DNA of 64,000 nt from Enterocloster clostridioformis (GTDB lineage: Bacteria > Bacillota > Clostridia > Lachnospirales > Lachnospiraceae). This document shows positions 2,962 to 53,496 of the stretch, piece by piece; position 1 is the first letter of the stretch; the number at the start of each line of letters is the position of its first letter. The notes under the pieces are model-generated. The model searched no databases, was not told the DNA's origin, and was given only the letters and a program-made list of their open reading frames with translations. The translations under genes and the position numbers were made by a program. The stretch is from contig NZ_JAIWZC010000001.1 of assembly GCF_020297485.1 (NCBI RefSeq), positions 3,038,001-3,102,000 on the forward strand, in the 5' to 3' direction.

Positions 2962-2963
2962 TA

Positions 2964-6450: not shown

Positions 6451-6560
6451 TAGCATTGAACAATCCTCATCAAAAACTCTTATAATAAAAATACACAATG
6501 CATAATAAAACAATGGAAAGTTAAACGGATATAATATGTCTCCGTTTAGGCTATAACATA

Positions 6561-14869: not shown

Positions 14870-14894
14870 TTTTCCATTTTCTCCTTTAATAGAT

Positions 14895-17374: not shown

Positions 17375-17390
17375 ACACACTCCTTTAATG

Positions 17391-18131: not shown

Positions 18132-18144
18132 GTTATATCTCCAA

Positions 18145-18933: not shown

Positions 18934-19032
18934 TCTTTTTCCTCCAGCCAATTAAATCTAAATCAGTATAACATCTTACCATGTCTTTTGCAACCAAGCA
19001 GCTATGCGTAATACTATGAAAAACTGTACTTT

Positions 19033-23858: not shown

Positions 23859-23938
23859 CGGATAAACACCTTCTAAATCCATCCTTCTTCATTCATACGC
23901 CGGTTTTTAACTATTTTCTTCTCCTAAATCCTCAATAC

Positions 23939-23967: not shown

Positions 23968-24080
23968 CTTACGTACTTATAAAAAAGCTGGAAATTGTTT
24001 AATCTTTTATTAATGTTTGTTTTAATACTTTTTGTTCTCTTTTATTGTCCTTAAGTTTTAACTTGTAACAATTTTCCATA

Positions 24081-26680: not shown

Positions 26681-26685
26681 TAGTA

Positions 26686-36306: not shown

Positions 36307-36371
36307 AAATACCTCCAGGAAAATCTTTCTATGTATTATATTTTGCGGTAATATGTCCTTCATATAAAAAA

Positions 36372-36454: not shown

Positions 36455-38179
36455 TTAATCTTCTACGTAGATACCAATAATCTTACCGCCCTTAGCTACT
36501 ACGTACTGGAAGTCATTGCCATCCTTGTTCTTGGACTTGCTGTCAATCACTTTACCAGATGTATTTACCAGGAAGTACTTATCAGTACCCATACCATTAC
36601 CGTCGTTGATAATATACAGTTCCTTAATGTCGGTTGTCTTCTTGTTAAGACCAAGTTTAGAAATATTCTCTTTGGTAACTGCTGTAGATGTTACCTTATT
36701 GCCAAGATCCTTAACAAAATCGTCTGCATCATCCAGCTTTACGTAACCCAGAGAATCATCATCATTAACAGCCTTAACCACCTGATACTTCTCATCAGAT
36801 CCAGCTCTTAAGAGCTTACCAGACTGATAGAACTTATCATCCTTCTCTCCTGTACGTCCAGCACCCTTGCTTCCGCCGGACTTCTCGAAGTAGAAGCTGA
36901 AGTTATCGCCATCAATAGAAACAGTGGCCTTGTTTGTTCTCATAGCGCCATCATTTCCATCACCGAAGTAATAGCACTTGTAACCAAGCTTATTAAGCTT
37001 AGGTGCGTTCTCATCGAATCTGTCTTCATCATCGAATGGATAGCTGCCATTATCGTCGGCTTTTACGTCTAAACTGCCGACGTCATCCTTGATAAACTTA
37101 AGTCCGTCAACCATACGGCCGTCATTACGGAACGCATACTTCTTGCCCTTGATGGTCTTGAACTCGCCTGCATACAGGTTGCCGCTTCCGTCTGCATAGT
37201 ACCAAGCATCTTCATCATCATTATACTTATCGTAGTTCAGATACTCAGCTGCTACTACCTTGAACCAGCCCTTGCTTACACGGGAACCATCCTCAACGCT
37301 GTTGAAGTATCTCCACTGCTCAGCATACTTAGCAGATACACTGTTGGTAGCTGATGTGCTGTAGCCGTCTCTTGTACCATTCTTAGAAGCTGCCTCAACA
37401 TCCAGAGACCACTCTGCTGTCATAGCGCCATACTGGTCGAACTCATATTTCTTGCCATTGATGGTCTTGCTCTTCTGGAGATCGCCATCTTTAGCCTGAA
37501 CCTTCTTACCATTTGACTGGAAGTAGAACCAACGGCTCTGATCCTCATCATCGTTGAATACAGGAGCAATCTCATTATCATTAGTTGCTTCATCGTATGT
37601 GATATCCATCTGCAGCCAGCCAACAGTCATAGCACCATCATCTTCGCCGCCGAAGTAGTAGGTACCTTCCTTGAAGCCGTCGCCGTCTGTATCATCTACG
37701 CGCTCTGCATTGTCCTCAGAAACCCAACCGTACAGCATCTTGCCTTCGTCATCAAAAGCATACTTCTTGCCGTTAATTGTCTTCAGAGCAACCTTAGCAT
37801 TGTCGCCATTCTTTAAAGCCTTACCATTTGCCTGGAAGTAATACCAGTAATGATCCGGCTCATTGTCCTGTCCTGCATCTTCGTTGTCGATAGCTACCCA
37901 CTGGTTAGCTGCCATAACACCGTTGATGTCTACATAATAATAGTTGTCGCCGTCCTCAATCAGCTGATCGATAGCCATTTCGCCATCGCTGTTTAACCAA
38001 TACCAGTTGTTACCGGATTTCTTCCACTGATCAGTTGCTCTCTCGCCGTCTCTGTTGTAATATACCCAAGTACCGTCTTCCTCAGCCCATCCTGTAGCTG
38101 CGAAAGAAGTCATGGATGCACCAATAGCGAGCAGTGCTGCTGTTGATAATACAGCAACTAACTTTGTCTGCTTTCTCAT
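36455..38179 (-). CDS. Cell-wall-repeat surface protein, locus A
   Basis: A 574-residue exported protein. The signal peptide (MRKQTKLVAVLSTAALLAIG...TSFAA) leads into GWAEEDGTWVYYNRDGERAT and then a whole-length array of glucan/choline-binding type repeats (Trp/Tyr-Tyr/Gly pattern). Many are Asp-rich, for example DTDGDGFKEGTYYFGGEDDGAMT. No enzymatic domain is seen, so it looks like a structural coat or adhesin. The first 150 residues are almost identical to the locus B protein; the centre (about 205-300) and the C-terminal third diverge. It has a near-consensus promoter with leader (38180-38275). Confidence 0.92.
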   Translation of the reverse strand: MRKQTKLVAVLSTAALLAIGASMTSFAATGWAEEDGTWVYYNRDGERATDQWKKSGNNWYWLNSDGEMAIDQLIEDGDNYYYVDINGVMAANQWVAIDNEDAGQDNEPDHYWYYFQANGKALKNGDNAKVALKTINGKKYAFDDEGKMLYGWVSEDNAERVDDTDGDGFKEGTYYFGGEDDGAMTVGWLQMDITYDEATNDNEIAPVFNDDEDQSRWFYFQSNGKKVQAKDGDLQKSKTINGKKYEFDQYGAMTAEWSLDVEAASKNGTRDGYSTSATNSVSAKYAEQWRYFNSVEDGSRVSKGWFKVVAAEYLNYDKYNDDEDAWYYADGSGNLYAGEFKTIKGKKYAFRNDGRMVDGLKFIKDDVGSLDVKADDNGSYPFDDEDRFDENAPKLNKLGYKCYYFGDGNDGAMRTNKATVSIDGDNFSFYFEKSGGSKGAGRTGEKDDKFYQSGKLLRAGSDEKYQVVKAVNDDDSLGYVKLDDADDFVKDLGNKVTSTAVTKENISKLGLNKKTTDIKELYIINDGNGMGTDKYFLVNTSGKVIDSKSKNKDGNDFQYVVAKGGKIIGIYVED

Positions 38180-38268
38180 AATTAATGCACTCTCCTTTTT
38201 CTTTTTGAAATACTTTTTGAAATTCCTTTTTTTGCATTACGAGTTGATTATACTTCGGATAAGGAAAA
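38180..38268 (-). repeat. Leader inverted repeat, copy A
   Basis: This 89-bp untranslated leader reads identically to 49342-49430 on the opposite strand. It includes the -10 box TATAAT and the AAAAGGAGAG ribosome site, and identity continues into the signal-peptide codons. The identity stops at 38268, one base short of the -35 hexamer. Confidence 0.93.
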
Positions 38269-38275
38269 TTATCAA
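38247..38275 (-). promoter_or_regulatory. Promoter of locus A surface protein (strong form)
   Basis: On the minus strand -35 is TTGATA (38270-38275) and -10 is TATAAT (38247-38252), spacer 17 bp. Both boxes are close to the sigma-A consensus. The -35 lies just outside the leader repeat shared with locus B. Confidence 0.85.
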
Positions 38276-38647
38276 TAGTTTTTTTGCATTTTTTGCATTT
38301 TCTACAAAATTATGTAATATCGACAATTCCATCCGTCGAAAGCTAACCAGCTCCATCACACGCACTTAGTATATTATAAATTCCGCAAAAATACCATAAC
38401 TTTTACCTGTGCATTTTCTTACATAATTATTACAAAGATGTTATACAACCCGCAAATTGCACTTATATATGTACATGTCCTCATATTTCAGCAAAAAACA
38501 GAATTAATACATTATGATTTTGTTATCTTTATATCCCATAATAACTTACGAGCATCATTACCCGGGAATTATTCCAGGGATGATGCTCGTTTATATAACT
38601 CCAGATATACTGTTCCGTCAAATCATAATTATGATAATCCTGATTTA
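38276..38647. other. Intergenic region between locus A promoter and uxaB
   Basis: This region of about 370 bp is AT-rich and has no credible gene. It holds the hairpin at 38548-38590 and, near 38283-38300, two TTTTTTGCATTT direct repeats upstream of the locus A -35 box. Confidence 0.5.
38548..38590 (-). terminator. Probable terminator of uxaB
   Basis: A strong hairpin with 11-bp outer arms ACGAGCATCAT / ATGATGCTCGT and a further paired inner part lies 58 bp beyond the uxaB stop. The T-run is short, so termination is inferred. Confidence 0.6.
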
Positions 38648-39985
38648 CTATCTCAATACAACCTCATAAGCCCCGGCCATGCCCTTGCACTGTATCAACT
38701 CATAATATTCCTCTATCATCGGAATCATCTCAGAAAGATCGGTATGCCAATAATCCTGACGCTTCATAATTTCTTCTACAGAGGCCTTTTTCATGAACTG
38801 CATTATCTCATCTCCATCATTAGCCTTATCCGTACGGTAGAAGGCTATTAATGCTGCCATAGAAAACGTAAGCGCCTTTGGGTAACGACCAAACTTTTCT
38901 TTATACTCCAATATAGTAGGAAGAACTCTAACCTGGAACTTGCTTACTGAATTTAATGCAATGCTCAGCAGCTGATGCTTGATAAATGGATTAGAGAAAC
39001 GCTCCAGAACAGCCGCACCGAATTTGCGATTATCCTCTGTGTCTCCAATTGTAGGAATGATTTCTTCAAATATACACTTCTTAAGGAATGCAGACACCTT
39101 CTCATCCTTCATGCATTCTCCAACTGTCTCAAGTCCGTACAGATACGCCCCCAATACCATGGAAGTGTGTCCTCCATTCAGAATGCGCACCTTCCTTTTT
39201 TTATACGGATGAACATCGTCTGTCCAGACAATATTATAGCCGGCCTTCTGGAATGGAAGTTCGTCTTCATGATGACCGCCGATAACCCACAGATGAAATA
39301 TCTCGGCCGTATCTATAAGCTTATCCTCATAACCAATCTGCTTCGTCAGCTCCTCAACCTCGTCACGTGGGTAACCTGTCACAATACGGTCTACCAGTGT
39401 GCTGCAGAAATCATTTTCATTTTCCAGCCAGGTTTTAAATCCGTCCTCCAGCTCCCATAACTCTGCATACTGCAGAACACATTTTTTCAAATTGTCCCCG
39501 TTATCATCAATCAGTTCACACGGGAGTAAAATAAGTCCTTTTAAACCGGCTTTGAACCTTTTATATAAAAACTGAGTAAGTTTAGCCGGATATGATTTTG
39601 GCGGCATATCAGTCAGCTTCTCTGTACCCAGGTATTCAATTCCTGCCTCGGTAGTATTGGAGACAAGAACCCTTAAATCCGGATTCTCTGCCAATGCAAT
39701 ATATTCTTCATATTGGGTATATGGATTCAACGCCCTGGATATAGATGTTACATGGGTATGCTCATTAACTACCTGTCCATTATCAATTCCCCGCAGGAAT
39801 AGATTATATTCACAATTTTGCTCCGAAAGCATCTGGCACATCCCTTTTTCGATAGGTTGAACCACGACTATCTTTCCATCATACAGACCTTTCTCCTGGA
39901 GCTTGTGAAAGAAATAGTCTACAAAGCCCCGCAGAAATCCTCCTTCTCCAAATTGAATCACAGTTTCTTTTACACATTTACTCAT
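38648..39985 (-). CDS. uxaB: Tagaturonate reductase (altronate oxidoreductase)
   Basis: UxaB reduces D-tagaturonate to D-altronate with NADH in galacturonate breakdown (cytosol). The protein (445 residues) belongs to the mannitol dehydrogenase superfamily: an N-terminal Rossmann part starting VIQFGEGGFLRGFVDYF, and a C-terminal catalytic part with VRILNGGHTSMVLGAYLYG, where the Lys/Asn/His catalytic set of the family is expected. The ATG 39985 follows a GGAGG-like site. No uxaA or uxaC lies nearby in the window, so it is a stand-alone unit with its own promoter and two palindromic sites, suggesting carbon-source control. Confidence 0.9.
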   Translation of the reverse strand: MSKCVKETVIQFGEGGFLRGFVDYFFHKLQEKGLYDGKIVVVQPIEKGMCQMLSEQNCEYNLFLRGIDNGQVVNEHTHVTSISRALNPYTQYEEYIALAENPDLRVLVSNTTEAGIEYLGTEKLTDMPPKSYPAKLTQFLYKRFKAGLKGLILLPCELIDDNGDNLKKCVLQYAELWELEDGFKTWLENENDFCSTLVDRIVTGYPRDEVEELTKQIGYEDKLIDTAEIFHLWVIGGHHEDELPFQKAGYNIVWTDDVHPYKKRKVRILNGGHTSMVLGAYLYGLETVGECMKDEKVSAFLKKCIFEEIIPTIGDTEDNRKFGAAVLERFSNPFIKHQLLSIALNSVSKFQVRVLPTILEYKEKFGRYPKALTFSMAALIAFYRTDKANDGDEIMQFMKKASVEEIMKRQDYWHTDLSEMIPMIEEYYELIQCKGMAGAYEVVLR

Positions 39986-40010
39986 TTTTGCTACCTCCGC
40001 TGTTGTTTTT

Positions 40011-40024
40011 TGTAAGTGCTTACA
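40011..40024. promoter_or_regulatory. Operator-like palindrome downstream of the uxaB promoter
   Basis: TGTAAGTGCTTACA is a perfect 14-bp palindrome of the LacI/CcpA (cre-like) type, placed between the promoter and the gene, where binding would block transcription. Confidence 0.65.
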
Positions 40025-40061
40025 TTTTTAACTTCAACATTTTTCTTTTGTTTATGTGATT

Positions 40062-40090
40062 ACTATACATCATATTTTTACTTTTTGCAA
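40062..40090 (-). promoter_or_regulatory. uxaB promoter
   Basis: Minus strand: -35 TTGCAA (40085-40090), -10 TATAGT (40062-40067), 17-bp spacer. Confidence 0.65.
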
Positions 40091-40108
40091 TAGTTTATAC
40101 TATTTTTT

Positions 40109-40122
40109 TGTAAGCATTTACA
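40109..40122. promoter_or_regulatory. Second operator-like palindrome upstream of the uxaB promoter
   Basis: TGTAAGCATTTACA is a near-palindrome sharing TGTAAG...TTACA with the site at 40011-40024. The two sites are 98 bp apart and flank the promoter, an arrangement compatible with DNA looping by one LacI-family regulator. Confidence 0.55.
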
Positions 40123-40183
40123 TATATCTTCCTAATAACATTGACTTTCCTGCAAAATTATGAATATAAAAGGAGGAGCAGGT

Positions 40184-40414
40184 ATGAGAAAGCACACAAA
40201 AGCACTTGCAACAATTATGGCAGCAGCTGCACTAGCAATGGTGACTAACAGCCGGATTCCGATTACAAACATCTGGTACTATGTTGGCCAGGACGGCAAG
40301 TGGTATTGCTTTGACAGGAACAATGGAGATATGAAGCGAGGCACTACAATTGACGGCTATACTGTTGATTTTATATTAGCGGGATTTAGGGAAAAAGAGC
40401 TATGTGCCGATTAG
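40184..40414 (+). CDS. Short exported protein with one cell-wall-type repeat (remnant of surface-protein family)
   Basis: This 76-residue product starts MRKHTKALATIMAAAALAMV, similar to the signal peptides of the two large surface proteins (MRKQTKLVAVLSTAALL). It then has one recognisable repeat (IWYYVGQDGKWYCFDRNNGDM) and an unrelated tail. The ATG 40184 follows GGAGGAGCAGGT. The stop lies inside a terminator hairpin. It is probably a decayed or internally deleted family member; whether it is expressed is unknown. Confidence 0.5.
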   Translation: MRKHTKALATIMAAAALAMVTNSRIPITNIWYYVGQDGKWYCFDRNNGDMKRGTTIDGYTVDFILAGFREKELCAD

Positions 40415-40434
40415 CCGGCACATAGCTCTTTTAA
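40393..40434 (+). terminator. Rho-independent terminator after the short exported protein
   Basis: Arms AAAGAGCTATGTGCCG and CGGCACATAGCTCTTT with a short loop containing the TAG stop, flanked by A- and T-runs, so it could act in both directions. Confidence 0.8.
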
Positions 40435-40457
40435 TATACACAACAAACCTTCCCGTC

Positions 40458-40505
40458 AGAAAACCGCCGCGCCTCAACATGTCTCCACATCTCAGCACGG
40501 CGGTC
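40458..40505 (-). terminator. Terminator of rplJ-rplL
   Basis: On the minus strand GACCGCCGTGC pairs with GCGCGGCGGTT, followed by TTCTG. It lies about 75 bp after the rplL stop and indicates that transcription is not meant to continue into an rpoB gene here. Confidence 0.65.
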
Positions 40506-40578
40506 TGCGCATCTAAATCAAGCTCAGCCTCATCAACTGAATCCCGATTATATGACTTATATCAGCCCTGGTCCAAAA

Positions 40579-40953
40579 TTACTTTAATGTAACCTTAGCG
40601 CCCTCAGCCTCTAATTTAGCCTTAACATCCTCAGCCTCATCCTTGGATGCGCCCTGCTTAACTACCTTAGGAGCTCCGTCAACTACGTCCTTAGCTTCCT
40701 TCAGGCCTAAGCCGGTAACTTCGCGAACAACCTTGATAACCTTAACCTTGTTAGGACCAACCTCAGTCAGCTCTACATCAAATTCGGTCTTCTCTTCAGC
40801 TGCCGCTGCGCCAGCGCCTGCTGCTGCAACTACAACACCTGCTGCTGCGGATACGCCAAACTCTTCCTCACATGCTTTTACTAATTCATTCAGTTCTAAT
40901 ACGGATAATTCCTTGATAGCTTCGATAAACTCAGCGGTTGTTAACTTTGCCAT
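40579..40953 (-). CDS. rplL: Ribosomal protein bL12 (L7/L12)
   Basis: This 124-residue stalk protein has the N-terminal dimerisation segment ([20 protein letters not shown]), an Ala/Gly-rich hinge ([19 protein letters not shown]) and the conserved C-terminal domain ending [14 protein letters not shown]. It recruits translation factors to the ribosome. The ATG follows a GGAGG site. It is co-transcribed with rplJ 75 bp upstream. Unusually, rpoB does not follow. Confidence 0.98.
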
Positions 40954-41028
40954 TTTATGTTCCTCCTGTTTAATATTTAATAATTAGTGTTTCAAGCCAC
41001 GGCCTTTGCCGCGCTTGTGTCAGTAAAA

Positions 41029-41529
41029 TTATGCCTCTGCGGCTCCACCCTGCTGCTCTGCGATCTGATTGAGTACACGAGCCAGGTTGGTAATCGGTGA
41101 CTGGATGCTTCCAAGCAGCTTGCCAAGAAGCTCCTCTCTGGAAGGAATGGTTGCGATAACCTGGGTTCCTGCCTGGTCATAGTAGGTTCCTTCAACTACA
41201 GATGCCTTCAGTTCCAGCTTTGGAGCTGTCTTAGCGAAGTTAGCTAAGATGCGTGCCGGAGCAGTAGCGTCTTCTTTGGAAACCGCTAATGCGGTAGGTC
41301 CTTCCAGCTGTGGTGCAAGTGCCGCAAAATCTGTTCCTTCTGCCGCACGCTTAATCAAAGTATTCTTATATACCTTGTAAGCAACCCCAGCTTCCCTTAA
41401 CTGCTTACGCAGCTGAGTATCCTGCTCTACTGTCAGGCCGCGGTAGTCTACGATGACTGCACCGGCAGCGCCTTCCAGCATAGCCTTGATCTCATCTACG
41501 ACTGGCTGTTTTAATTCAACTTTTGCCAT
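41029..41529 (-). CDS. rplJ: Ribosomal protein uL10
   Basis: The protein has 166 residues, the usual size, with the conserved start MAKVELKQPVVDEIKAMLEGA and DYRGLTVEQDTQLRKQLREA. It anchors the L7/L12 stalk to 23S rRNA. A GGAGG-type site precedes ATG 41529. Its long leader (41530-41836) holds a hairpin with T-run, so L10(L12)4 feedback on the leader is likely, as known in other bacteria. Confidence 0.98.
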   Translation of the reverse strand: MAKVELKQPVVDEIKAMLEGAAGAVIVDYRGLTVEQDTQLRKQLREAGVAYKVYKNTLIKRAAEGTDFAALAPQLEGPTALAVSKEDATAPARILANFAKTAPKLELKASVVEGTYYDQAGTQVIATIPSREELLGKLLGSIQSPITNLARVLNQIAEQQGGAAEA

Positions 41530-41800
41530 GAATGGTTTACCTCCTTATATAGTTTCGCATTGAAAACCGTCATAGCATGGAACGATTCATAATCCGGGTT
41601 CCAAGATTCCGCGCCGGACATGCCGGACGCACCGGATATACCAGGTACGGACATCTGCCGGAACCAGACAAAAAACCTCTCTGCCATAAAGACAGAGAGG
41701 TTCGCAAAATCTCATCATAAATAATCAGAGTTTTGTATGTTCCTCGGCAGGCGTTTTTGCCTTACACCTTACGGTACCTGCTGTCTCAGGGCATTCAATA
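41530..41800 (-). promoter_or_regulatory. rplJ leader region (L10 leader)
   Basis: A long untranslated leader runs from the promoter at 41808-41836 to rplJ. It contains a terminator-like hairpin (41669-41702) followed by about 140 nt before the gene. The L10 leader is a known autoregulatory RNA in Firmicutes; I infer the role from position and the hairpin. Confidence 0.65.
41669..41702 (-). terminator. Attenuator hairpin in the rplJ leader
   Basis: Minus strand: AACCTCTCTG pairs with CAGAGAGGTT, followed by a T-run. It lies between the promoter and rplJ, so it should end part of the transcripts early. Confidence 0.8.
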
Positions 41801-41807
41801 CTGTGGT

Positions 41808-41836
41808 ATCATATCATATTGTATGAATGATGTCAA
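41808..41836 (-). promoter_or_regulatory. rplJ-rplL promoter
   Basis: Minus strand: -35 TTGACA (41831-41836, perfect), -10 TATGAT (41808-41813), 17-bp spacer. Confidence 0.85.
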
Positions 41837-41973
41837 GCCCCATTCAGGCTTATCCACGGTTTCTATCCACGGTTTATCCACGATGTTTAACCACGGCATA
41901 CGCATAAATGCGTAAAATAAACCTTCAGATGAATGGGGTTCTGTGCTTAAAAGCACTATATTATAACAATCAA

Positions 41974-42669
41974 TTAGTTCACAAGCTTTGCAACGTTCAG
42001 CTTAACGCCGGGACCCATGGTAGAGGTCAGGGCAACGCTCTTAAGGTATGCGCCCTTAACGGTGCTTGGCTTAGCCTTCATGATCGCATCAATAAGCGTC
42101 TGGAAGTTGTCCGCTAACTGCTCCTCTGTGAAAGAAGCTTTTCCTACTGGCACGTGAATAATATTTGTCTTGTCGAGTCTGTATTCAATCTTACCAGCTT
42201 TGATGTCGTTGATAGCCTTGGTTACGTCCATGGTTACGGTTCCGGCCTTTGGGTTCGGCATTAAGCCCTTTGGTCCCAGTACACGGCCCAGACGGCCTAC
42301 AACGCCCATCATATCAGGGGTAGCTACCACAACGTCAAAATCCAGCCAGCCGTCGTTCTGAATCCTCGGGATCAGTTCCTCTGCTCCTACGTAATCAGCA
42401 CCCGCCGCCTGAGCCTCATCGGCCTTTGGTCCCTTTGCAAATACTAAGATACGTACAGTCTTGCCTGTTCCGTGTGGAAGAACAACAGCGCCACGAATCT
42501 GCTGGTCAGCATGACGTCCGTCACATCCTGTTCTGATATGAAGCTCTACAGTCTCATCAAATTTTGCGGATGCGTTCTTCTTCACTAATGTGATAGCATC
42601 AGCAATGTCATAAAGTGCAGCACGGTCTACGTTTTTCATAGCCTCTGCATATCTTTTTCCTGATTTCAT
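41974..42669 (-). CDS. rplA: Ribosomal protein uL1
   Basis: A 231-residue protein starting [15 protein letters not shown], with the conserved [17 protein letters not shown] segment and the C-terminal [10 protein letters not shown] region. ATG 42669 follows a TAGGAGG site; the longer in-frame start at 42777 lacks one and would exceed the family's normal length. L1 binds 23S rRNA at the E-site stalk and usually represses its own operon. It lies about 160 bp after rplK. Confidence 0.97.
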
Positions 42670-42828
42670 TCTAAATAACCTCCTAGTGGTATTGACGGGG
42701 AATCTCCCTCCCACGTTCATATAACGGGTAAATGCCTTAGCAACCCGGAAACCTTGCTCGGGTGTCTCCGGATTCATGCACCAATTGTATTATTCCTCGG
42801 TATAATTTCCAGATATGATTCTTTGAAA

Positions 42829-43254
42829 TTATTCCTCGATGGTAACGCCCATGCTTCTTGCAGTGCCGGCAATCATGCTCATGGCAGCCTCTAAGCTGGC
42901 AGCATTTAAGTCTGGCATCTTAGTCTCTGCAATCTTCTGAAGATCAGCCTTCTTAAGAACAGCTACCTTTGTCTTGTTAGGAACGCCGGAACCGCTCTTG
43001 ATGTTGCAGGCCTTCTTAATCAGAACAGCTGCCGGCGGGGTCTTGGTGATGAAGCTGAAGCTTCTGTCCGCATATACGGTAATGACAACAGGGATGATCA
43101 TGTCGCCCTGATCTGCTGTCCTTGCGTTGAATTCCTTGGTAAACTGAACGATGTTGACACCGTGCTGACCAAGTGCTGGTCCAACTGGTGGCGCTGGTGT
43201 TGCTTTGCCAGCCGGAATCTGTAATTTAATATATCCTGTTACTTTCTTTGCCAT
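42829..43254 (-). CDS. rplK: Ribosomal protein uL11
   Basis: A 141-residue protein, the usual length, when started at ATG 43254 ([33 protein letters not shown]). It forms the GTPase-associated centre with 23S rRNA. The C-terminal domain ends SMGVTIEE. The ATG follows an AGGAGG site. Confidence 0.98.
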
Positions 43255-43351
43255 CTTAGGCACCTCCTAAAATTATGTGGTATTGTCGGGAATGTCCCTC
43301 CCACCAGCCCCTGCCCTGCAGAAGCTGATTCCTTGTGTTACAAACGGACGC

Positions 43352-43870
43352 CTACATCTTCTTGACTTCGGCAAATCCAAGTTCAACCGGTGTTTCACGG
43401 CCGAACATCTCAACGTGCATGGTAATGGTCTTCTTACTGTCATTGATGGCCTTGATGGCCCCTACAGTATCCTTCCATGCGCCGGAGATAACAACTACCA
43501 TATCTCCTACTTCAAAGTCGACTAAGACATCTTCTTCCCTATGGAATCCCAGGCTGGCCATCTCTTCTTCTGTCAGAGGAACCGGTTTGGAGCCCGGACC
43601 CACAAAGCCCGTGACACCGCGGGTATTCCGCACTACATACCATGTGTCGTCGTTCATGACCATGTTGATGAGCACATACCCCGGGAACATCTTCTTGTCC
43701 GCCTTTTTCTCCACGCCGTTCTTAAGCTCAACCACAGGGAGCATGGGGACGGACACCTCTAAGATCTGGTCCTGAAGGTTCCTGTTTTCAATTGTTTTCT
43801 CAATGTCGACCTTGACTTTGTTCTCATATCCTGAGTAGGTATGGACTACATACCAATGTGCTTCTGACAT
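43352..43870 (-). CDS. nusG: Transcription termination/antitermination factor NusG
   Basis: A 172-residue protein with an N-terminal NGN domain (WYVVHTYSGYENKVKVDIEKTIENR; MFPGYVLINM) and a C-terminal KOW domain (FEVGDMVVVISGAWKDTVGAI). It binds RNA polymerase and couples it to Rho or the ribosome. It lies between secE and rplK, the standard order. Confidence 0.98.
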   Translation of the reverse strand: MSEAHWYVVHTYSGYENKVKVDIEKTIENRNLQDQILEVSVPMLPVVELKNGVEKKADKKMFPGYVLINMVMNDDTWYVVRNTRGVTGFVGPGSKPVPLTEEEMASLGFHREEDVLVDFEVGDMVVVISGAWKDTVGAIKAINDSKKTITMHVEMFGRETPVELGFAEVKKM

Positions 43871-43915
43871 ACAATCACCCTCGCCTTTATTTCAATCCGC
43901 ATTCGTTTGCTTAAA

Positions 43916-44176
43916 TTAAAGAATAAAGCTCAAACCAAACTTCATAACGAAGTCCAGGACAGCAATCATCACGCCAATCGCAATTGACATGAAAAGCACT
44001 GCCACGGTCTGTTTTGCCACGGTTTCCTTGTCAGCAAAGACGATTTTCTTGTACTCTTTCTTCAGCCCGTGAAAAAAGCCAGGCTTTTTGTCCTTCTTAG
44101 CTGCCTTCTTCTCAACCTTGTCAGCCTTGGCCGTTTTCTCTGTGGTTTCTACAGCGTTAACTGTATTCTCTTCCAT
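43916..44176 (-). CDS. secE: Preprotein translocase subunit SecE
   Basis: An 86-residue protein with a lysine-rich cytosolic N-terminus, the conserved FFHGLKKEYKKIVFADKETV amphipathic segment and one C-terminal membrane helix. It stabilises SecY in the plasma membrane. Position between rpmG and nusG is standard. Confidence 0.96.
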   Translation of the reverse strand: MEENTVNAVETTEKTAKADKVEKKAAKKDKKPGFFHGLKKEYKKIVFADKETVAKQTVAVLFMSIAIGVMIAVLDFVMKFGLSFIL

Positions 44177-44202
44177 AATTTCACGTCCTTTACTGAGCAG
44201 GA

Positions 44203-44352
44203 TTACTTTGTTTCCTTATGCATGGTATGCTTCTTGCAGAATCTGCAGTACTTCTTTGTTTCCATACGGTCCGGATGAGTTTTCTTGTCCTTAGTCATGT
44301 TGTAGTTGCGTTGTTTGCATTCTGTACATGCCAGTGTAATTTTTGTGCGCAC
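44203..44352 (-). CDS. rpmG: Ribosomal protein bL33
   Basis: A 49-residue protein read from GTG 44352 ([23 protein letters not shown]...), with two Cys pairs (CTEC and CRFC) of the zinc-binding L33 form. An AGGTGG-type site precedes the GTG start. It is first in the rpmG-secE-nusG-rplK-rplA operon, 26 bp before secE. Confidence 0.95.
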
Positions 44353-44452
44353 GACTTCCACCTCCACTTATATTATCGTAGTTCACATTTGCCGCTCAGG
44401 TACTTATTTTTGAGCATAAAAAAAAGACCTAAGCTCTTCCATTCGCCCGTTT

Positions 44453-44481
44453 ACTATACCATAGAAATATCCATACGTCAA
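44453..44481 (-). promoter_or_regulatory. Promoter of the rpmG-secE-nusG-rplKA operon
   Basis: Minus strand: -35 TTGACG (44476-44481), -10 TATAGT (44453-44458), 17-bp spacer, about 100 bp upstream of rpmG. Confidence 0.8.
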
Positions 44482-44509
44482 GGAATTTTTGCGGATTTAT
44501 GGGATGGCA

Positions 44510-45286
44510 TCATTGTCCATGGCCGATAAATATGGTGACAAAATATACGTGCTCCGCACCGGCTTTTCTGAGGACCCGGGCGCACGCCTCTATGGTACTG
44601 CCTGTTGTGTAGATATCATCCACCAATATAACTTTTTGCATGGCGGACGGCAGGGCAGCCGCCGTGAAGGCCTGCTCCAGATTCTTTAACCGGCCGCTGG
44701 AATCCAGGTTTTTCTGCGGAGCTGTCTTTCGTTCCCTTTTCAGAACGGATGTGTTTACAGGAATTCCCAGCGGGCCGGAAAGACGGCGGGCTAATTCCTC
44801 CGCCTGGTTGAATCCTCTTTCCCGAAGGCGGGACGGATGGACCGGCACAGGAATAAGGGCATCCCCATCCATGGAACGGATGCGTTTTCCCATTTTCCTG
44901 ACCATGGCTTCGCTGTAGAAATCCAGATATTCTCTCCTATTATTGTACTTAATCCGGGCCATGGAACGGCTGGCCGTGTCATCGTAATTAATAAGGCTCA
45001 GTCCATAATCAAAGCTGCGTTTATGTCTGGCGCAGTCACGGCAGTATTCGATGGTCTCATCCAACACTTCCTTTCCGCACTTTTTGCAGACAGGACGCCG
45101 TACCCAGGACAGCTTTGCCATGCAGCCCGGACATATGAGATTTCCTTTGGGCAGGACAATATCGCCGCACACAGGGCAGCGGCGGGGAAACAGGATATCT
45201 GTCAGGAAATCACTGCCTTCCTGAATTATCTTGAACGGCACCTTAAATGGTGTCTTAATTGGCGTCTTAGTCCGTATCTCCACCAC
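44510..45286 (-). CDS. comFC: ComF-family phosphoribosyltransferase-like protein
   Basis: A 258-residue protein with an N-terminal zinc-ribbon set of cysteines (CPVCGD, CPGC, CKKCG, CRDC) and a C-terminal type I phosphoribosyltransferase domain with VILVDDIYTTGSTIEACARVL, the PRPP-binding motif. ComFC acts in natural transformation in related bacteria. It lies 41 bp after recD2 and may share its transcript. Confidence 0.9.
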   Translation of the reverse strand: MVEIRTKTPIKTPFKVPFKIIQEGSDFLTDILFPRRCPVCGDIVLPKGNLICPGCMAKLSWVRRPVCKKCGKEVLDETIEYCRDCARHKRSFDYGLSLINYDDTASRSMARIKYNNRREYLDFYSEAMVRKMGKRIRSMDGDALIPVPVHPSRLRERGFNQAEELARRLSGPLGIPVNTSVLKRERKTAPQKNLDSSGRLKNLEQAFTAAALPSAMQKVILVDDIYTTGSTIEACARVLRKAGAEHVYFVTIFIGHGQ

Positions 45287-45327
45287 CTCCTGAATTCCTT
45301 TTTAACTCACAATGCATCTTCGGATTC

Positions 45328-47619
45328 TCAGCCAATGGAATCCGGCTGCGCATATATCTCCCCGATCCTGCTTTTAAGCCCGGAATACCGCTTCTGTTCC
45401 ACGCAGTTTGCCGCCATGGTGTAAAATGCATCCGGCTGTCCCACCAGACATACGCACGCGCGGGCGCGGGTCACGGCCGTGTATATGAGATTGCGGGTCA
45501 TAAGCATGCGGGGACCGTTGTACATGGGGATGATAACTGCCGGGTATTCGCTTCCCTGTGACTTGTGGATGGTGATGGCATAGGCTAATTCCAGCTCCTC
45601 CAGCTGCTTGAAGCTGTACTCTATCATCTTGCCCTCATCAAATTCAACGGTGAGCAGCTCCGCAAATTCATTGATTTCCCGGATAATTCCAACGTCGCCG
45701 TTGAAAATTCCGGCTCCCTTGTCCACGGGTATACCGTACTTGTTGCGGACCTCCCACTCCATCTGATAGTTGTTCTTTATCTGCATGACCTTGTCGCCCA
45801 CCCGGTAGATGGTACCGCCCGCCTCTTTTTCCTTCTTTGTCTTGTCCGGCGGATTCAGGTAATTCTGCATAATCTGGTTCAGGCGCTCCACGCCCAGGGC
45901 GCCCTTTCGCATGGGCGTCATGACCTGGATATCAAAGGCATTGGCGTGTACGTAGTCAGGCAGCTTCTTCTGAATCAGGGTGATGGCTGCGCTTATGACA
46001 GCGTCGGGATTGTCCCTTCGGATAAAGAGGAAGTCCTGGCTGCGTTTTGCCAGGTCAACAGGCTCTCCTGCATTGATTTTGTGGGCGTTGACCACAATGT
46101 CGCTCTGGGCGGCCTGGCGGAAGATGTGGGTCAGCTTCACCACATTGAAGCTGCCGGATTCGATAATATCCCGCAGTACATTTCCCGGCCCCACGCTGGG
46201 GAGCTGGTCCACATCCCCCACCAGGATGAGCCGGGTGCCCACATTCACCGCCCTCAGCAGGGAATGCATGAGGCTGATATCCACCATTGACATCTCATCT
46301 ATGATGATGACATCGGCATCCAGAGGATTCTCCTCATTTCTGTCAAAATGCATCCCCATGCTCTGGGCTCCCCTGCCTGACCTTGGAACGCCGGGAATCA
46401 CAGGGGCATCATTGCCGGACATTCCCACCGGGACCAGCTCCAGCATACGGTGGATGGTCCTGGCCTCATATCCTGTTGCCTCCGTCATCCGCTTGGCTGC
46501 CCGGCCCGTGGGCGCTGCCAGAAGGATTTCCATTCCCTCCATCTCAAAATACCGGATGATTGTATTGATGGTGGTTGTCTTGCCGGTACCGGGACCACCG
46601 GTGATAACCAGCAGGCCGCTGTTCACAGCTTCGTATACCGCCTTTTCCTGCAGTTCATCCAGGTGAATGGACTCCTGCTGCTGTATTTTAAGGAGATTGG
46701 CCTTGATTTCGGCCTGGGGAATATCCCCCTTGATGTTCAGGTCATGCAGCATACGGGCTGCATTGAGCTCCAGATAATAGTAGTGGGAGGAGTAGACCAG
46801 GGCGCCCTGGGCAGATGGCTTTACCACCACCTTTCGGTCTATTTGCATATCCATCAGGTGCTTTTCCATGGCGGACGGCTCTACTTTTAAAAGCTCTGAT
46901 GCCTGGACAAACAGCTCTGCCTGGGGAAGATAGGTATGGCCGTTGGCGGTAGCCAGAAGAAGAGTGTACAGAATACCTGCCTTGATACGGTAATCGGAAT
47001 CCGTGAAGATTCCCACCCGCTCCGCTATCTCGTCAGCCATCTTAAAGCCCACTCCCGGAATATCATCTGCCAGGCGGTAGGGATTCTCCCGGATAATCCC
47101 GTACAGGGCGGGACCGTACTCCTGATATATCTTGGCTGCCAGATTTATGGTAATGCCGTAATTCTGGAGGAACATCATGGCCTGACGCATGTCCTTCTTG
47201 TCCTCTACCTGCTCGGCTATGGCCATGGCCATCTTCTCGCTGACTCCCTTTACTTCGGACAGGCGCTCCGGCTCCTCCTCCATGACCCGGAAGGTGTCTG
47301 CCTTGAAATGGCGCACGATTCGGGCAGCCAAAGCGGCCCCGATGCCTTTGATGGCGCCGGAGCCAAGATAGCGTTCCATGGACAGTTCATCCTGGGGTGT
47401 CTTCATCTCATAGCTTTCTATCTGAAGCTGCTCCCCGTACACCGGATGCTGGGTCATATGGCCGCTGGCTTCTATCATATCGCCCTCTGCGGCATAAGCC
47501 AGATTGCCTACCATGATGACTTCTTCCCCGTCGCTCTGATCCGTGACACTCATTACTGTGTAGCCGTTTTCTTCGTTGCGGAACTTGATCCGCTCTATAA
47601 ATCCTGTTATTGTCGCCAT
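45328..47619 (-). CDS. recD2: RecD2-type ATP-dependent DNA helicase
   Basis: A 763-residue protein, typical for RecD2. Its N-terminal region has tandem helix-hairpin-helix segments (YLGSGAIKGIGAALAARIV; PGVGFKMADEIAERVG). The helicase core has Walker A GGPGTGKTTT, Walker B VIIIDEMSMVD, LVGDVDQLPSVGPGNVL, and a C-terminal ITIHKSQGSEYPAVI motif. It unwinds DNA 5'-3' and works outside RecBCD. It sits between mreB and comFC. Confidence 0.95.
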   Translation of the reverse strand: MATITGFIERIKFRNEENGYTVMSVTDQSDGEEVIMVGNLAYAAEGDMIEASGHMTQHPVYGEQLQIESYEMKTPQDELSMERYLGSGAIKGIGAALAARIVRHFKADTFRVMEEEPERLSEVKGVSEKMAMAIAEQVEDKKDMRQAMMFLQNYGITINLAAKIYQEYGPALYGIIRENPYRLADDIPGVGFKMADEIAERVGIFTDSDYRIKAGILYTLLLATANGHTYLPQAELFVQASELLKVEPSAMEKHLMDMQIDRKVVVKPSAQGALVYSSHYYYLELNAARMLHDLNIKGDIPQAEIKANLLKIQQQESIHLDELQEKAVYEAVNSGLLVITGGPGTGKTTTINTIIRYFEMEGMEILLAAPTGRAAKRMTEATGYEARTIHRMLELVPVGMSGNDAPVIPGVPRSGRGAQSMGMHFDRNEENPLDADVIIIDEMSMVDISLMHSLLRAVNVGTRLILVGDVDQLPSVGPGNVLRDIIESGSFNVVKLTHIFRQAAQSDIVVNAHKINAGEPVDLAKRSQDFLFIRRDNPDAVISAAITLIQKKLPDYVHANAFDIQVMTPMRKGALGVERLNQIMQNYLNPPDKTKKEKEAGGTIYRVGDKVMQIKNNYQMEWEVRNKYGIPVDKGAGIFNGDVGIIREINEFAELLTVEFDEGKMIEYSFKQLEELELAYAITIHKSQGSEYPAVIIPMYNGPRMLMTRNLIYTAVTRARACVCLVGQPDAFYTMAANCVEQKRYSGLKSRIGEIYAQPDSIG

Positions 47620-47703
47620 CGTTTCATCAAAAGTTTAAAAGAACCCGGTGCCAGGGCGTGTCCGGAGTGCTCCAGTCTATCACGCTGTGCCGGGTTCTGA
47701 TTT

Positions 47704-48747
47704 TTAGTAATCTTCTCTTCCGCCGCCTACTCCCATGGATGCCTCCATAGCCATATTCATGCCGTGGGCAAACTCAATAAACTTGCCGGTACCAATGGCC
47801 ACCGCGGTCAGCGGGTCCTCCGCAATCATGGTGGTGATGCCCGTCTTTTCCTCAATCAGGGCATCCAGGCCGCTGAGCAGGGAACCGCCTCCTGTCATCA
47901 CGATACCTCTGTCAAAAATATCGGCAGCCAGTTCCGGCGGGGTGCGCTCCAATACATTGTGTACGGCATCCACAATCTGCAGAGCCGGCTCTCTGAGTGC
48001 CTCCAGAGTCTCGTCTGAGGTAACCACGATGGTCTTTGGAAGACCGGTCACCAGATTACGTCCTCTGACCTCCATGGTCAGGACTTCCGGCCTGCGGTAC
48101 GCCGCTCCGATGTTAATCTTTATCTCCTCCGCCGTGCGCTCGCCAATCAGAAGGTTATGCTTCTTCCTCATATAGCGCACCAGAGCCTCGTCAAAGTCAT
48201 CACCCGCAATTTTGATGGATGTGCTGACAACAGGACCTCCCAGGGAAATAACCGCAATGTCAGCTGTACCGCCTCCGATGTCCACGATCATATTGCCGCA
48301 GGCCTTGCCGATATCAATGCCTGCGCCGATGGCAGCCGCAACCGGCTCCTCGATAATGGCCACTTCCCTGGCTCCTGCCTGGTAGGTGGCGTCCTCCACT
48401 GCCTTTTTCTCAACCTCTGTGGCACCGCTGGGAATACATACGCTGATTCTTGGCTTGCGCAGCGTCTTCTTGCCCACTGCCTTGCTGATGAAATATTTGA
48501 GCATCTTCTCTGTAATGGTATAATCTGAAATAACGCCCTGACGCAGAGGACGGACAGCAACAATATTGCCCGGGGTACGTCCTATCATAAGACGGGCTTC
48601 CTCACCGATGGCCATGATTTTGTTGGTATCGCGGTCAATGGCCACAACGGACGGTTCTTTTAACACAACGCCTTTTCCCTTGATATATACAAGGATGCTG
48701 GCAGTTCCTAAGTCAATTCCAATATCATTGGACATCATCGAAAACAT
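47704..48747 (-). CDS. mreB: Rod shape-determining protein MreB family
   Basis: A 347-residue actin-like ATPase with phosphate 1 motif IGIDLGTASILVY, connect/phosphate 2 VDIGGGTADIAVISLGG and adenosine motif IVMTGGGSLLSGLD. It polymerises under the membrane and guides lateral wall synthesis. No mreC/mreD follow, so it may be the Mbl/MreB paralogue outside the mre operon. It has its own promoter (48901-48928). Confidence 0.93.
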   Translation of the reverse strand: MFSMMSNDIGIDLGTASILVYIKGKGVVLKEPSVVAIDRDTNKIMAIGEEARLMIGRTPGNIVAVRPLRQGVISDYTITEKMLKYFISKAVGKKTLRKPRISVCIPSGATEVEKKAVEDATYQAGAREVAIIEEPVAAAIGAGIDIGKACGNMIVDIGGGTADIAVISLGGPVVSTSIKIAGDDFDEALVRYMRKKHNLLIGERTAEEIKINIGAAYRRPEVLTMEVRGRNLVTGLPKTIVVTSDETLEALREPALQIVDAVHNVLERTPPELAADIFDRGIVMTGGGSLLSGLDALIEEKTGITTMIAEDPLTAVAIGTGKFIEFAHGMNMAMEASMGVGGGREDY

Positions 48748-48900
48748 ATAAATAGTTCCTCCTCAATGACTGAACCGGACCGGACGCACACGCTGGTGGC
48801 TTCCATGCCTGTCCCCCTATGGGGACCAGACGCCGGGACAGACCGCATCAATTGCTTAAATATAAATGGTTGCATTGCATTACTTCTATGCATTGCTTCT

Positions 48901-48928
48901 ATTATATACAATATTGTAAAGTTTTCAA
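48901..48928 (-). promoter_or_regulatory. mreB promoter
   Basis: Minus strand: -35 TTGAAA (48923-48928), -10 TATAAT (48901-48906), 16-bp spacer, about 155 bp upstream of the gene. Confidence 0.65.
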
Positions 48929-49086
48929 AGGGTTTTTTTCTTTTTTATTTTCTTTATGTTTTTTTCATGCCAAGGACATATTTTCGTCACAATTATTGCT
49001 TATTATAATAACAAGTTCATCGAGAGGTGGACGAGGCCTTTGTTTCAAGTGATTACTTGAAATTACAAAGCTTTTTCATACTCATA

Positions 49087-49108
49087 CCGGACGGAGTAAT
49101 CCGTCCGG
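49087..49108. terminator. Compact hairpin upstream of locus B
   Basis: A perfect 9-bp stem with a 4-nt loop (CCGGACGGA GTAA TCCGTCCGG), followed by a C-run and not a T-run. It may be a weak terminator or an RNA stability element. Confidence 0.4.
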
Positions 49109-49181
49109 CCCCCCTATAACATTTTCTTTTATATATACCTACCATTCCCACGCAGGCAATGAGCTATGCGAAAAAAAGCAG

Positions 49182-49223
49182 AAAAAGAACTGGCGACGTA
49201 TTTTACGGACGCCGGTTCTTTTT
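49182..49223 (+). terminator. Rho-independent terminator upstream of locus B
   Basis: Arms AAAGAACTGGCG and CGCCGGTTCTTT followed by TTTT. It would shield locus B from read-through. Confidence 0.75.
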
Positions 49224-49334
49224 TGCCGTATCACATAAATTTTCTGCCTGCATGATATCACAAGCCTGAATCACAGGCATGGTCTGCGCAGTTCTCTATC
49301 CCTTTACCCCCCGCTATATCTGAACTAAAGACTG

Positions 49335-49363
49335 TCTATACTTTTCCTTATCCGAAGTATAAT
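49335..49363 (+). promoter_or_regulatory. Promoter of locus B surface protein (weak -35 form)
   Basis: The -10 TATAAT (49358-49363) and the whole 16-bp proximal spacer equal locus A. The hexamer at the -35 position is TCTATA (49335-49340), which matches TTGACA at only three positions, whereas locus A has TTGATA. Expression should be weaker unless an activator helps. Confidence 0.6.
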
Positions 49364-49430
49364 CAACTCGTAATGCAAAAAAAGGAATTTCAAAAAGTAT
49401 TTCAAAAAGAAAAAGGAGAGTGCATTAATT
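49342..49430 (+). repeat. Leader inverted repeat, copy B
   Basis: An 89-bp leader reading identically to locus A (38268-38180, opposite strand). It starts just inside the -35 hexamer and runs through the -10 and ribosome site into the gene. The two copies face each other across about 11 kb. Confidence 0.93.
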
Positions 49431-51236
49431 ATGAGAAAGCAGACAAAGTTAGTTGCTGTATTATCAACAGCAGCACTGCTCGCTATTGGTGCATCCATGA
49501 CTTCTTTCGCAGCTACAGGATGGGCTGAGGAAGACGGTACTTGGGTATATTACAACAGAGATGGCGAGAGAGCAACTGATCAGTGGAAGAAATCCGGTAA
49601 CAACTGGTATTGGTTAGATAGTGATGGCGAAATGGCTATCGATCAGCTGATTGAGGATGGCGACAACTATTATTATGTAGACATCAACGGTGTTATGGCA
49701 GCTAACCAGTGGGTAGCGATTGACAACGAGGATGCGGGCGAGGATGACGAGCCGGATCATTACTGGTATTACTTCCAGGCTAATGGTAAGGCATTAACCA
49801 ACGGAGACAATGACAAAGTTTCTTTAAAGACGGTAAACGGCAAAAAGTATGCTTTTGATGACGAAGGCAAGATGTTGTTTGGCTGGGTAGATGAGAACAG
49901 TGCTGAGCGTGTAGACAATACAGACGGTGACGGCTTTAAGGAAGGTATCTACTACTTCGGCGGCGAGGATGACGGTGCTATGACCGTTGGCTGGCTGCAG
50001 CTTGACATCACATACGATGAAGCCACCAATGACGACTATAAGTATACCGCAGCAGCATTTAACGATGATGAGGATCAGACACGTTGGTTTTATTTTAAGT
50101 CCAATGGTAAGAAGATTTATGCTGAAGACGGAGACCGTACCAAAGATAAAACTATTAACGGCAGGAAGTATGCATTTGATCAGTATGGTGCAATGGTAGC
50201 TGAATGGTCTATTGATGAGGATGACCTCGGCAACGGTGGTATTGCTTCCTTTAGCTCTGCAATTGCGTCAACTAGTGAAGTTGTTACTGGTAAGGCAGCT
50301 GATTCTAAATATACCCAGGCATGGAAATACTTCAACAGCGTTGAAGATGGTTCCCGCGTAAGCAAGGGTTGGTTCAAAGTAGTATCTGCTGAATATATTA
50401 ATGAAGAGAAATATAACGACGATGAGGATGCATGGTACTACGCAGATGGTAGTGGCAATCTGTATGCCGGTGAGTTCAAGACCATCAAAGGTAAGAAGTA
50501 TGCATTCCGCAATGATGGTCGTATGCTGAGCGGCTTGAAGTTCATCTTGGATAACGGTAATGATAACTTAACCGTATATGCGGATGATGACAGCACATAT
50601 GGTTTTGATAACGAGGATGATTTCCTGGATAATGCTGTTGATTTCTATGAGCCAAATGGCTATAAGTGCTACTATTTCGGTGGCGATGATGATGGTGCCA
50701 TGAGAACAAATAAGACAACCGTTCCATTTGACGGCGATAATTATAACTTCTACTTCGAGAAATCAGGTGGCAGCAAGGGCGCTGGTGTAACCGGCGAAAA
50801 GGATAATAAGCTGTACCAGTCTGGTATGCTTTTGAAGGCGGACTCCGATGATAAATATATTGTAGTTGAAAAGGTTACAACAACCGAGAATGGCAAGACT
50901 ACAACAACTTACACTAAATTAGACGATGCGAAAGATTTCCTGAATGCTGCAGGTGTAGTTTCTACGGATGAGTTAACTGGCAAGGCCTCAGATGCTTCCG
51001 TAGCTATCGGTAATGGCAATACCAAAAAGGCTGAAGATTTGTCCGAGGCTTACTCCATTACGTATAAGGAGGCATCTGCAACCGATAATGTTAAGTATGA
51101 GTATATTCTTGTAAATACATCCGGCAAGGTAGTTGATGGAAAAACAAAGAGCAAGGACGGAAATGATTACTACTATGTAACCAAGAAGAAGGCCGATGGA
51201 ACCAACAGCATTGTAGCTGTATATGTTGAGGATTAA
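49431..51236 (+). CDS. Cell-wall-repeat surface protein, locus B
   Basis: A 601-residue exported protein and paralogue of 36455-38179. The signal peptide and first 150 residues are nearly identical. The repeats then drift: a variable centre (about residues 265-295, FSSAIASTSEVVTGKAADS) and a longer, Thr-rich C-terminal part (VEKVTTTENGKTTTTYTKLDD). The end again reads GKVVDGKTKSKDGNDYYYV...VYVED. Only cell-wall-binding type repeats are seen, with no enzyme domain. The start ATG follows AAAAGGAGAG. Confidence 0.92.
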   Translation: MRKQTKLVAVLSTAALLAIGASMTSFAATGWAEEDGTWVYYNRDGERATDQWKKSGNNWYWLDSDGEMAIDQLIEDGDNYYYVDINGVMAANQWVAIDNEDAGEDDEPDHYWYYFQANGKALTNGDNDKVSLKTVNGKKYAFDDEGKMLFGWVDENSAERVDNTDGDGFKEGIYYFGGEDDGAMTVGWLQLDITYDEATNDDYKYTAAAFNDDEDQTRWFYFKSNGKKIYAEDGDRTKDKTINGRKYAFDQYGAMVAEWSIDEDDLGNGGIASFSSAIASTSEVVTGKAADSKYTQAWKYFNSVEDGSRVSKGWFKVVSAEYINEEKYNDDEDAWYYADGSGNLYAGEFKTIKGKKYAFRNDGRMLSGLKFILDNGNDNLTVYADDDSTYGFDNEDDFLDNAVDFYEPNGYKCYYFGGDDDGAMRTNKTTVPFDGDNYNFYFEKSGGSKGAGVTGEKDNKLYQSGMLLKADSDDKYIVVEKVTTTENGKTTTTYTKLDDAKDFLNAAGVVSTDELTGKASDASVAIGNGNTKKAEDLSEAYSITYKEASATDNVKYEYILVNTSGKVVDGKTKSKDGNDYYYVTKKKADGTNSIVAVYVED

Positions 51237-52423: not shown

Positions 52424-52604
52424 TTTTATCCGGAAGTTAGACATTCTCCTTCTATTTGTCTATATATTTGCGTTTATCGCCCGATTTTTGTGAATAATCT
52501 GCGGGGATTTGTTCATCAATAGACAAATAAATGAAACTGTATATTTATTTTTGAGGAATCCTGAGCTAATATATTTGTTAAAAAATGAAAGGAGCAAAAT
52601 TATA

Positions 52605-53474: not shown

Positions 53475-53496
53475 TGGAATGAAAGGTGCGCTCAGC

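Follow-up and report, generated by a model that had tools for sequence, protein, structure and literature searches.

A stretch of 64,000 nucleotides from Enterocloster clostridioformis (RefSeq assembly GCF_020297485.1, contig NZ_JAIWZC010000001.1, positions 3,038,001 to 3,102,000; the whole stretch is referred to as the window, and its own numbering is used throughout) carries two paralogous genes for choline-binding-repeat proteins, A1 and B1, which begin with the same leader in inverted orientation. The locus very probably belongs to a site-specific DNA-inversion switch that splits a promoter between its -35 and -10 boxes. In the proposed mechanism, a single flank per genome would hold an A-tract and the -35 box, every surface-protein cassette would hold a -10 box, a leader and a gene, and the recombination site would lie between the two boxes, so that inversion between two inverted copies would link the one -35 flank to a different cassette and separate it from its previous partner. 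In the assembly it is A, not B, that adjoins the promoter half, a state that inverting about 11.06 kb would reverse. With only one promoter half to share out, such a cut between the -35 and -10 boxes would ensure that one gene is chosen; linkage to the -35 box presumably means expression, and the outcome of switching would be surface variation. The exchange of the -35 box between surface genes by inversion is well supported for the family and unproven for the 11-kb block of the window.

The paired loci of the window

The preliminary description of this DNA had proposed that inversion of the segment enclosed by the two leaders swaps their -35 boxes, and the sequence features on which it relied are all present. 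The 89-bp leaders of A and B are identical and inverted, at 38268-38180 (-) and 49342-49430 (+), and continue into coding starts whose first 100 nt are identical; identity is 94-98% over 100-300 nt and then decays, while the ungapped inverted pair around the leaders covers 706 nt at 92% identity. Nothing aligns well between A and B to the left of the 89-bp leader. The shared part holds the -10 box and stops before the -35 box: locus A has TTGATA, a 17-nt spacer and TATAAT, matching the consensus at 11 of 12 positions with A-tracts upstream, and locus B has TCTATA where A has its -35 box. Ribosomal-protein genes (rplL, rplJ, rplA, rplK) were found between the two loci, and tyrosine-recombinase genes (52509-54809, PF00589) downstream of B, as had been stated. 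Both surface proteins carry signal peptides, assigned by reading of the translations, and downstream of each surface gene lies a second choline-binding paralogue.

A promoter scan at B (49000-49460) returned no promoter-like site, with 1.2 expected from shuffled sequences, and for want of such a match a promoter of its own at B was rejected. The scan at A (38150-38660) gave two sites against 3.8 in shuffles. By itself the scan is weak evidence at either locus; the promoter at A is supported because it is conserved across genera. Inspection by eye had suggested that terminators insulate the silent copies on their upstream side, which the scan at B did not support. The core AATTTTCCNTATNNGAAGTATAAT, allowing at most three mismatches, occurs twice in the window with 0.01 occurrences expected, which rules out a chance origin. 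In the genome as a whole, 5.87 Mb in two contigs, the leader occurs twice in full and once as a weak partial match.

A single promoter-linked copy per genome

A search of 397 genomes of the family with the leader yielded matches in 50 at E <= 1e-3 and in 23 at E < 1e-10. Within Enterocloster, in a sample including clostridioforme AGR2157, citroniae, asparagiforme and alcoholdehydrogenati, 15 of 17 genomes matched, that of the window included, one of them (G009) through the promoter flank only, at a contig end. The reading of -35 boxes took in the strong matches (E < 1e-10) and set the 27 weaker ones aside; a weak hit at G211:21668 was dismissed as no leader. Six of the 23 strong-leader genomes (G088, G151, G233, G308, G322 and G401) stood outside this reading, and G035 was taken as two short loci, one promoter-linked and one silent.

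Exactly one copy with the A-tract and a TTG-type -35 box was found in the stretches read from each of the 22 genomes in which a promoter-linked copy was read. Eight of these are Enterocloster genomes, in which that copy carries TTGATA and lies beside the tagaturonate reductase gene or the rplL end of the ribosomal block, among two copies read in G000, G002, G005, G006 and G015, three in G010, four in G011 and six in G014. Apart from one truncated copy in G005, the remaining Enterocloster copies share the same border and have unrelated upstream DNA, and G003, G007, G012 and G013 each showed one copy in the stretches read, without a -35 box or behind a gap. The other 14 genomes belong to further genera and carry TTGATA or TTGCTA. 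In the Lacrimispora group (genus g345, which includes Lacrimispora amygdalina src4 and Clostridium sp. 12(A)), one promoter-linked copy is present in 24 of 25 genomes, and in 14 it is accompanied by a silent copy.

Conservation of the putative recombination site

Columns around the border were analyzed in 70 distinct copies (32 promoter-linked and 38 silent) that had at least 45 upstream bases and no N. The promoter flank is fixed at -28 to -24 (A in 32/32 promoter-linked copies) and at -21 to -17 (TATTG). Silent flanks hold little information upstream of -16 except for T at -21 (30/38) and C at -18 (27/38), yet within the silent copies T-15, A-14, T-12, T-11 and T-10 are near-fixed, with A or C at -13; positions -9, -7, -6, -2 and -1 are variable, TAT is largely retained at -5 to -3, and near-fixation returns at GAAGTATAAT. 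The left part of this pattern is read as half of a recombination site because a silent copy has no promoter use for it. The shared border and the conserved core across the 70 copies indicate that every gene has a short recombination site on its 5' side. Words with four or more matches to TTGACA at a legal spacing occur in 3 of 38 silent flanks, with about 6.8 in shuffles; this scarcity and the bias at -21 and -18 may reflect either an outward extension of the site or selection that disfavours a -35 box.

A swapped arrangement in the Lacrimispora group

In the seven Lacrimispora-group genomes with a promoter-linked and a silent copy on one contig, the two are inverted and head-to-head, 1.1-1.7 Mb apart, in the geometry of A and B. 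One single-contig genome, G444, was compared at both sites with six relatives (G440, G443, G453, G454, G455 and G456) and at the promoter site with three more genomes; its promoter flank stands on the normally silent cassette and vice versa. This flank aligns over 4.2-8.1 kb with the promoter flanks of the other genomes, and the cassette joined to it is 77-89% identical to their silent cassettes and is followed by silent-type downstream DNA. The recombinase-side flank is joined to the cassette beside the exopolysaccharide (EPS) genes, whose downstream DNA corresponds to the promoter-linked site of the others. A segment of about 1.1 Mb is inverted in G444, with pieces of G453 from four places lying collinear at similar distances from the corresponding flank.

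The position of the exchange can be narrowed further. At 12 diagnostic columns left of -17, the promoter copy of G444 is promoter-type at all 12 and its silent-flank copy is silent-type at 10 and neither at 2, while three diagnostic columns right of -7 (-6, -2 and -1) follow the cassette; because the columns on the left follow the flank and those on the right follow the cassette, the crossover is placed between -18 and -6, in the 11-bp GATAATTTCCA that separates the -35 and -10 boxes. Of the silent copies examined, 9 of 10 have the variant AATATTA; so does 1 of 24 promoter-linked copies, and G444 accounts for both exceptions. Misassembly as the origin of the swap was rejected by inference, because the exchanged words share only 11 bp, judged too short for an assembler overlap. 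The arrangement reads as an inversion that changed the promoter-linked gene, seen between species only, in G444 compared with its six relatives. If the switch is real, some large chromosome inversions in Lachnospiraceae would be by-products of surface variation.

Apparent exchange of cassettes between sites

Hungatella hathewayi DSM 13479 (G086) and H. effluvii (G400) have four copies each, of which one is promoter-linked. The promoter-linked bodies of the two species are 43% identical to each other, whereas the H. hathewayi one reaches 93% identity (447 aa) with a silent body of H. effluvii and the H. effluvii one 74% with a silent body of H. hathewayi, the other 13 pairs ranging from 38 to 51%. 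This is an apparent cassette swap between the two species. Among 38 cassettes of multi-copy genomes, the nearest 5' end lies in the same genome in 23 cases and the nearest body in 14, as expected if 5' ends recombine within genomes.

Recombinases associated with the leaders

The window contains two complete XerC/D-like tyrosine recombinase genes, Rec1 and Rec2, and a fragment of a third. The catalytic R, K, HxxR, H and Y are present in both complete translations, as judged by eye, and the best matches of Rec2 by sequence in the Protein Data Bank are a XerC-like protein, XerD, XerA and XerH. Relatives of Rec2 (E <= 1e-50) occur in 34 of the 397 genomes, namely in 18 of the 23 strong-leader genomes and 16 of the 374 others (Fisher p 1e-17, uncorrected for kinship). 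They are present in 17/17 genomes with two leader matches and in 1/6 with one (p 2e-4, likewise uncorrected), a count that excludes the 22-bp second match of G408 and includes the second matches of G005 and G233, which have no core; without the latter two second matches the figures are 15/15 and 3/8. In 7 of 18 genomes (G000, G035, G073, G088, G188, G233 and G256) a Rec2 match is no farther than about 5 kb from a leader, and in the Lacrimispora group a divergent Rec1-Rec2 pair adjoins the silent-type flank in all eight loci read and none of the nine promoter-flank loci. By this association and adjacency, Rec1 and Rec2 are candidates to catalyze the inversion.

Use of the Rec2 family as a marker of this system alone is contradicted by leader-less genomes: of the 16 that are Rec2-positive, ten were inspected (L298-L307), and in these ten only a single Rec2-like gene was found, with no Rec1 partner nearby and without a core in the 11-20 kb of surrounding sequence.

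The ribosomal block and the outer cassettes in Enterocloster

The claim that the 11-kb ribosomal block itself flips is not shown by the relatives: all 10 Enterocloster genomes that are informative, that of the window included, hold the block the same way round relative to its outer neighbours, an outcome with a probability of 0.002 (two-sided) under free flipping. Comparison with related genomes thus divides the earlier proposal, since the exchange of the -35 box stands for the family, on the strength of the single -35 copy in 22/22 genomes, the swapped state in one Lacrimispora-group genome and the apparent Hungatella exchange, and is unproven for the block of the window. Whether this block flips in the species of the window is put at about even odds.

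Further inverted cassettes lie outside A in G010, G011 and G014, and also in G007 with assembly gaps; in these relatives the outer cassettes could swap without moving the ribosomal block. The window holds the remnant of such a third cassette, pointing towards A, which begins with the possible half-site AATTTTCCATATA and continues from about position 24082 at approximately codon 200 of the cassette body, as though a deletion from within the site had removed its 5' part. Over time there does seem to have been exchange with the B side, to judge from an A-type cassette at the B site of G012, a cassette 83% identical to B1 next to the promoter flank of G007 (behind an assembly gap), and the identical leaders of A and B.

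Contrary observations and alternative explanations

Several observations besides the constant orientation of the block weigh against the proposed switch or its details. On a tree of cassette bodies, from which proteins shorter than 400 aa and identical ones were left out, the promoter-linked and silent labels had been expected to be freely distributed and are mildly clustered (71 rows, without one duplicate and one copy behind a gap); because they show 19 changes compared with 23.6 (sd 2.2) in shuffles, 38 of 1000 of which were as low, the labels change often but not freely. Most B-side cassettes of Enterocloster form their own clade. The bases between the conserved arms of the site differ between copies within G011, G015, G188, G267 and G073, and the body of the EPS-side cassette of G444 sides with neither type (56-71% and 61-62%). 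As for the recombinases, no Rec2 relative reaches E <= 1e-50 in five of the strong-leader genomes, and in 11 of 18 leader genomes the Rec2 match lies more than 5 kb from the leader or on another contig. G438 has a second, 47-base fragment of the promoter flank. Two of its contigs, C11 and C99, match that flank, representing either two promoter flanks or redundant contig ends.

The leaders might exchange by general homologous (RecA-type) recombination and gene conversion between long shared 5' ends, with no dedicated site and with recombinases that serve something else. The A/B homology spans hundreds of bases, 5' ends find their nearest relative within the genome more often than bodies do, some copies differ just left of GAAG, and the G444 inversion is large and lies where ordinary repeats also recombine, all of which such a process would accommodate; it fits poorly with the only placeable crossover falling in the outermost 11 bp of homology, with the conservation of the left part (AATTTYC) in silent copies, where it has no promoter role, and with the association of recombinases with leaders, and we consider it improbable. 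A static inverted duplication, with the leader conserved because of the untranslated region and signal peptide, with B as a spare that lacks a promoter and with no switching in the species, is also unlikely, to about the same degree. The single orientation in the assembly and the lack of a promoter-like match at B agree with it; the conservation of the left part among silent copies, the identity of leaders whose adjoining bodies have diverged, the exchanges in Hungatella and G444, and the retention of recombinases in the locus do not.

A narrower form of the inversion switch has a chance only slightly short of even. According to it, Enterocloster switches between A and an outer third cassette while the block stays in place, and B is a rarely exchanging reservoir; since the third cassette is broken in the window, A would be effectively locked on, with A-B inversion rare or not viable. 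The outer inverted cassettes of G010, G011, G014 and (with gaps) G007, the remnant at about 24082-25262 and the uniform block orientation speak for this form. The identity of the A and B leaders, the cassettes of G012 and G007 described above and the head-to-head inversion in the Lacrimispora group speak against it, as does the state of the nearest outer cassette of G014, which is itself broken (51-aa frame). Returning to the promoter-splitting switch as a whole, we lean towards a system common to Lachnospiraceae: a tyrosine-recombinase site in the gap between -35 and -10 would deal a half-promoter among several, even distant, cassettes, through inversions from a few kilobases to more than 1 Mb, the ribosomal block included.

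Relation to known inversion switches

Enterocloster and Hungatella include common human gut bacteria, and we know of no described multi-gene surface switch in either genus. Two classical systems offer partial parallels. In the sap system of Campylobacter fetus, RecA-dependent inversion moves an intact promoter on the invertible segment, and surface genes with a common 5' end face away from that segment, as they do here; the present loci differ in their tyrosine recombinases and their split promoter. Long homology as in a sap-type RecA mechanism is present here, and the single placed crossover lies at the 11-bp border. Shufflons of the R64 type use several inverted sites to exchange the 3' portion of a coding gene while its 5' portion stays constant. 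Here, too, the presence of several inverted sites among the cassettes would let genes be swapped, but the crossover lies upstream of the coding sequence and joins whole genes to a promoter half, so that the loci are not a shufflon.

At the vpma locus of Mycoplasma agalactiae, variable surface-protein genes form a family with one unique promoter, and inversion by Xer1, a Xer-type tyrosine recombinase, selects the gene placed after that promoter (PMC5634654). On the available portion of that account, the present system resembles it in having a surface-gene family, one promoter and Xer-type recombinase genes, known here from sequence, and in having one gene copy per genome with a full promoter in the genomes counted above. 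It differs in possessing two adjacent recombinase genes, in cassettes that are possibly far apart on the chromosome and in its phylum; because the crossover falls between -35 and -10, the promoter itself is split here, which may be a further difference. Invertons of the PhaseFinder type comprise inverted repeats with surface genes nearby, and groups of them have been linked to tyrosine recombinases, Clostridia included; the examples given with coordinates in the portion consulted span about 250-670 bp (PMC11892184). By that portion of the account, segments of kilobases or more set the present system apart, and no whole promoter lies in a short segment, as the -10 box is inside the repeat, the -35 box is outside it and the A-B segment is 11 kb long. 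The main text of PMC11892184 makes no mention of asparagiforme, hathewayi or bolteae.

Long repeats would be expected to hide such a system from short reads. Assemblies break at or within the leader in several cases (a gap at L097, contig ends behind L016, L017, L018 and L019, and both contigs of G319), so short-read surveys may well miss it. No description of the system was found in the literature searched, subscription papers and supplements lying outside the search. Inversion switches with one promoter are already known; the parts that appear new are the division of the promoter between -35 and -10 and the size that the segments can reach.

Features of the window

The coordinates of the elements discussed are collected in Table 1.

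Table 1. Predicted elements of the A and B loci and their surroundings in the window.
Feature	Position	Strand	Basis or remark
Third-cassette remnant oriented towards A, starting with possible half-site AATTTTCCATATA	24068-25262	+	tblastn pieces from A1 residue 202 on; half-site is our reading
A2, second choline-binding gene of cassette A	35152-36363	-	PF19085; paralogue of 51364-52350
A1, secreted choline-binding-repeat protein, promoter-linked in the assembly	36455-38179	-	PF19127, PF01473
89-bp leader, copy A	38180-38268	-	Sequence identity to copy B
-10 box TATAAT of locus A	38247-38252	-	Sequence and promoter scan
Putative crossover zone GATAATTTTCC at A	38263-38273	-	Homology to the 11-bp zone in G444; also near-fixed among silent copies
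-35 box TTGATA of locus A	38270-38275	-	One TTG copy per genome in 22 genomes
Segment (~11.06 kb) that A-B inversion would flip: tagaturonate reductase, rplL, rplJ, rplA, rplK, nusG, secE, comF-like, recD2, mreB	38274-49336		Ribosomal, nusG, secE and comF names assigned by reading of translations
A-tract region upstream of the -35 box of locus A	38276-38300	-	Promoter-linked site; A columns fixed in relatives
TCTATA at the -35 place of locus B	49335-49340	+	Sequence and promoter scan
Putative crossover zone TATACTTTTCC at B	49337-49347	+	Core conservation; homology to the G444 zone
89-bp leader, copy B, with TATAAT at 49358-49363	49342-49430	+	Sequence identity to copy A
B1, paralogue of A1, without -35 box in the assembly	49431-51236	+	PF19127, PF19085, PF01473
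B2, second choline-binding gene of cassette B	51364-52350	+	PF19085
Rec1, XerC/D-like tyrosine recombinase	52509-53474	+	PF00589; far below XerC and XerD cut-offs
Rec2, XerC/D-like tyrosine recombinase	53461-54342	+	PF00589; far below XerC and XerD cut-offs
Rec3, C-terminal fragment of a third recombinase	54342-54809	+	155 aa, profile positions 60-168 of 172

The region on the side of the broken third cassette contains near-identical repeats of 110-150 bp (2954-3104, 6307-6456, 26576-26686 and 31646-31798) around transposase-like open reading frames (ORFs) at 1614-2939 and 25365-26651. An exopolysaccharide-type cluster (13911-23882) adjoins the third cassette, and homologues of its genes are neighbours of leader sites in many of the genomes read from the family. 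Within the ribosomal block, a short choline-binding ORF (40160-40414) between the tagaturonate reductase gene and rplL looks truncated because G005, G010 and G015 have longer matches at the same place, and a ribosomal protein L10 leader RNA (RF00557) lies at 41661-41808 (-).

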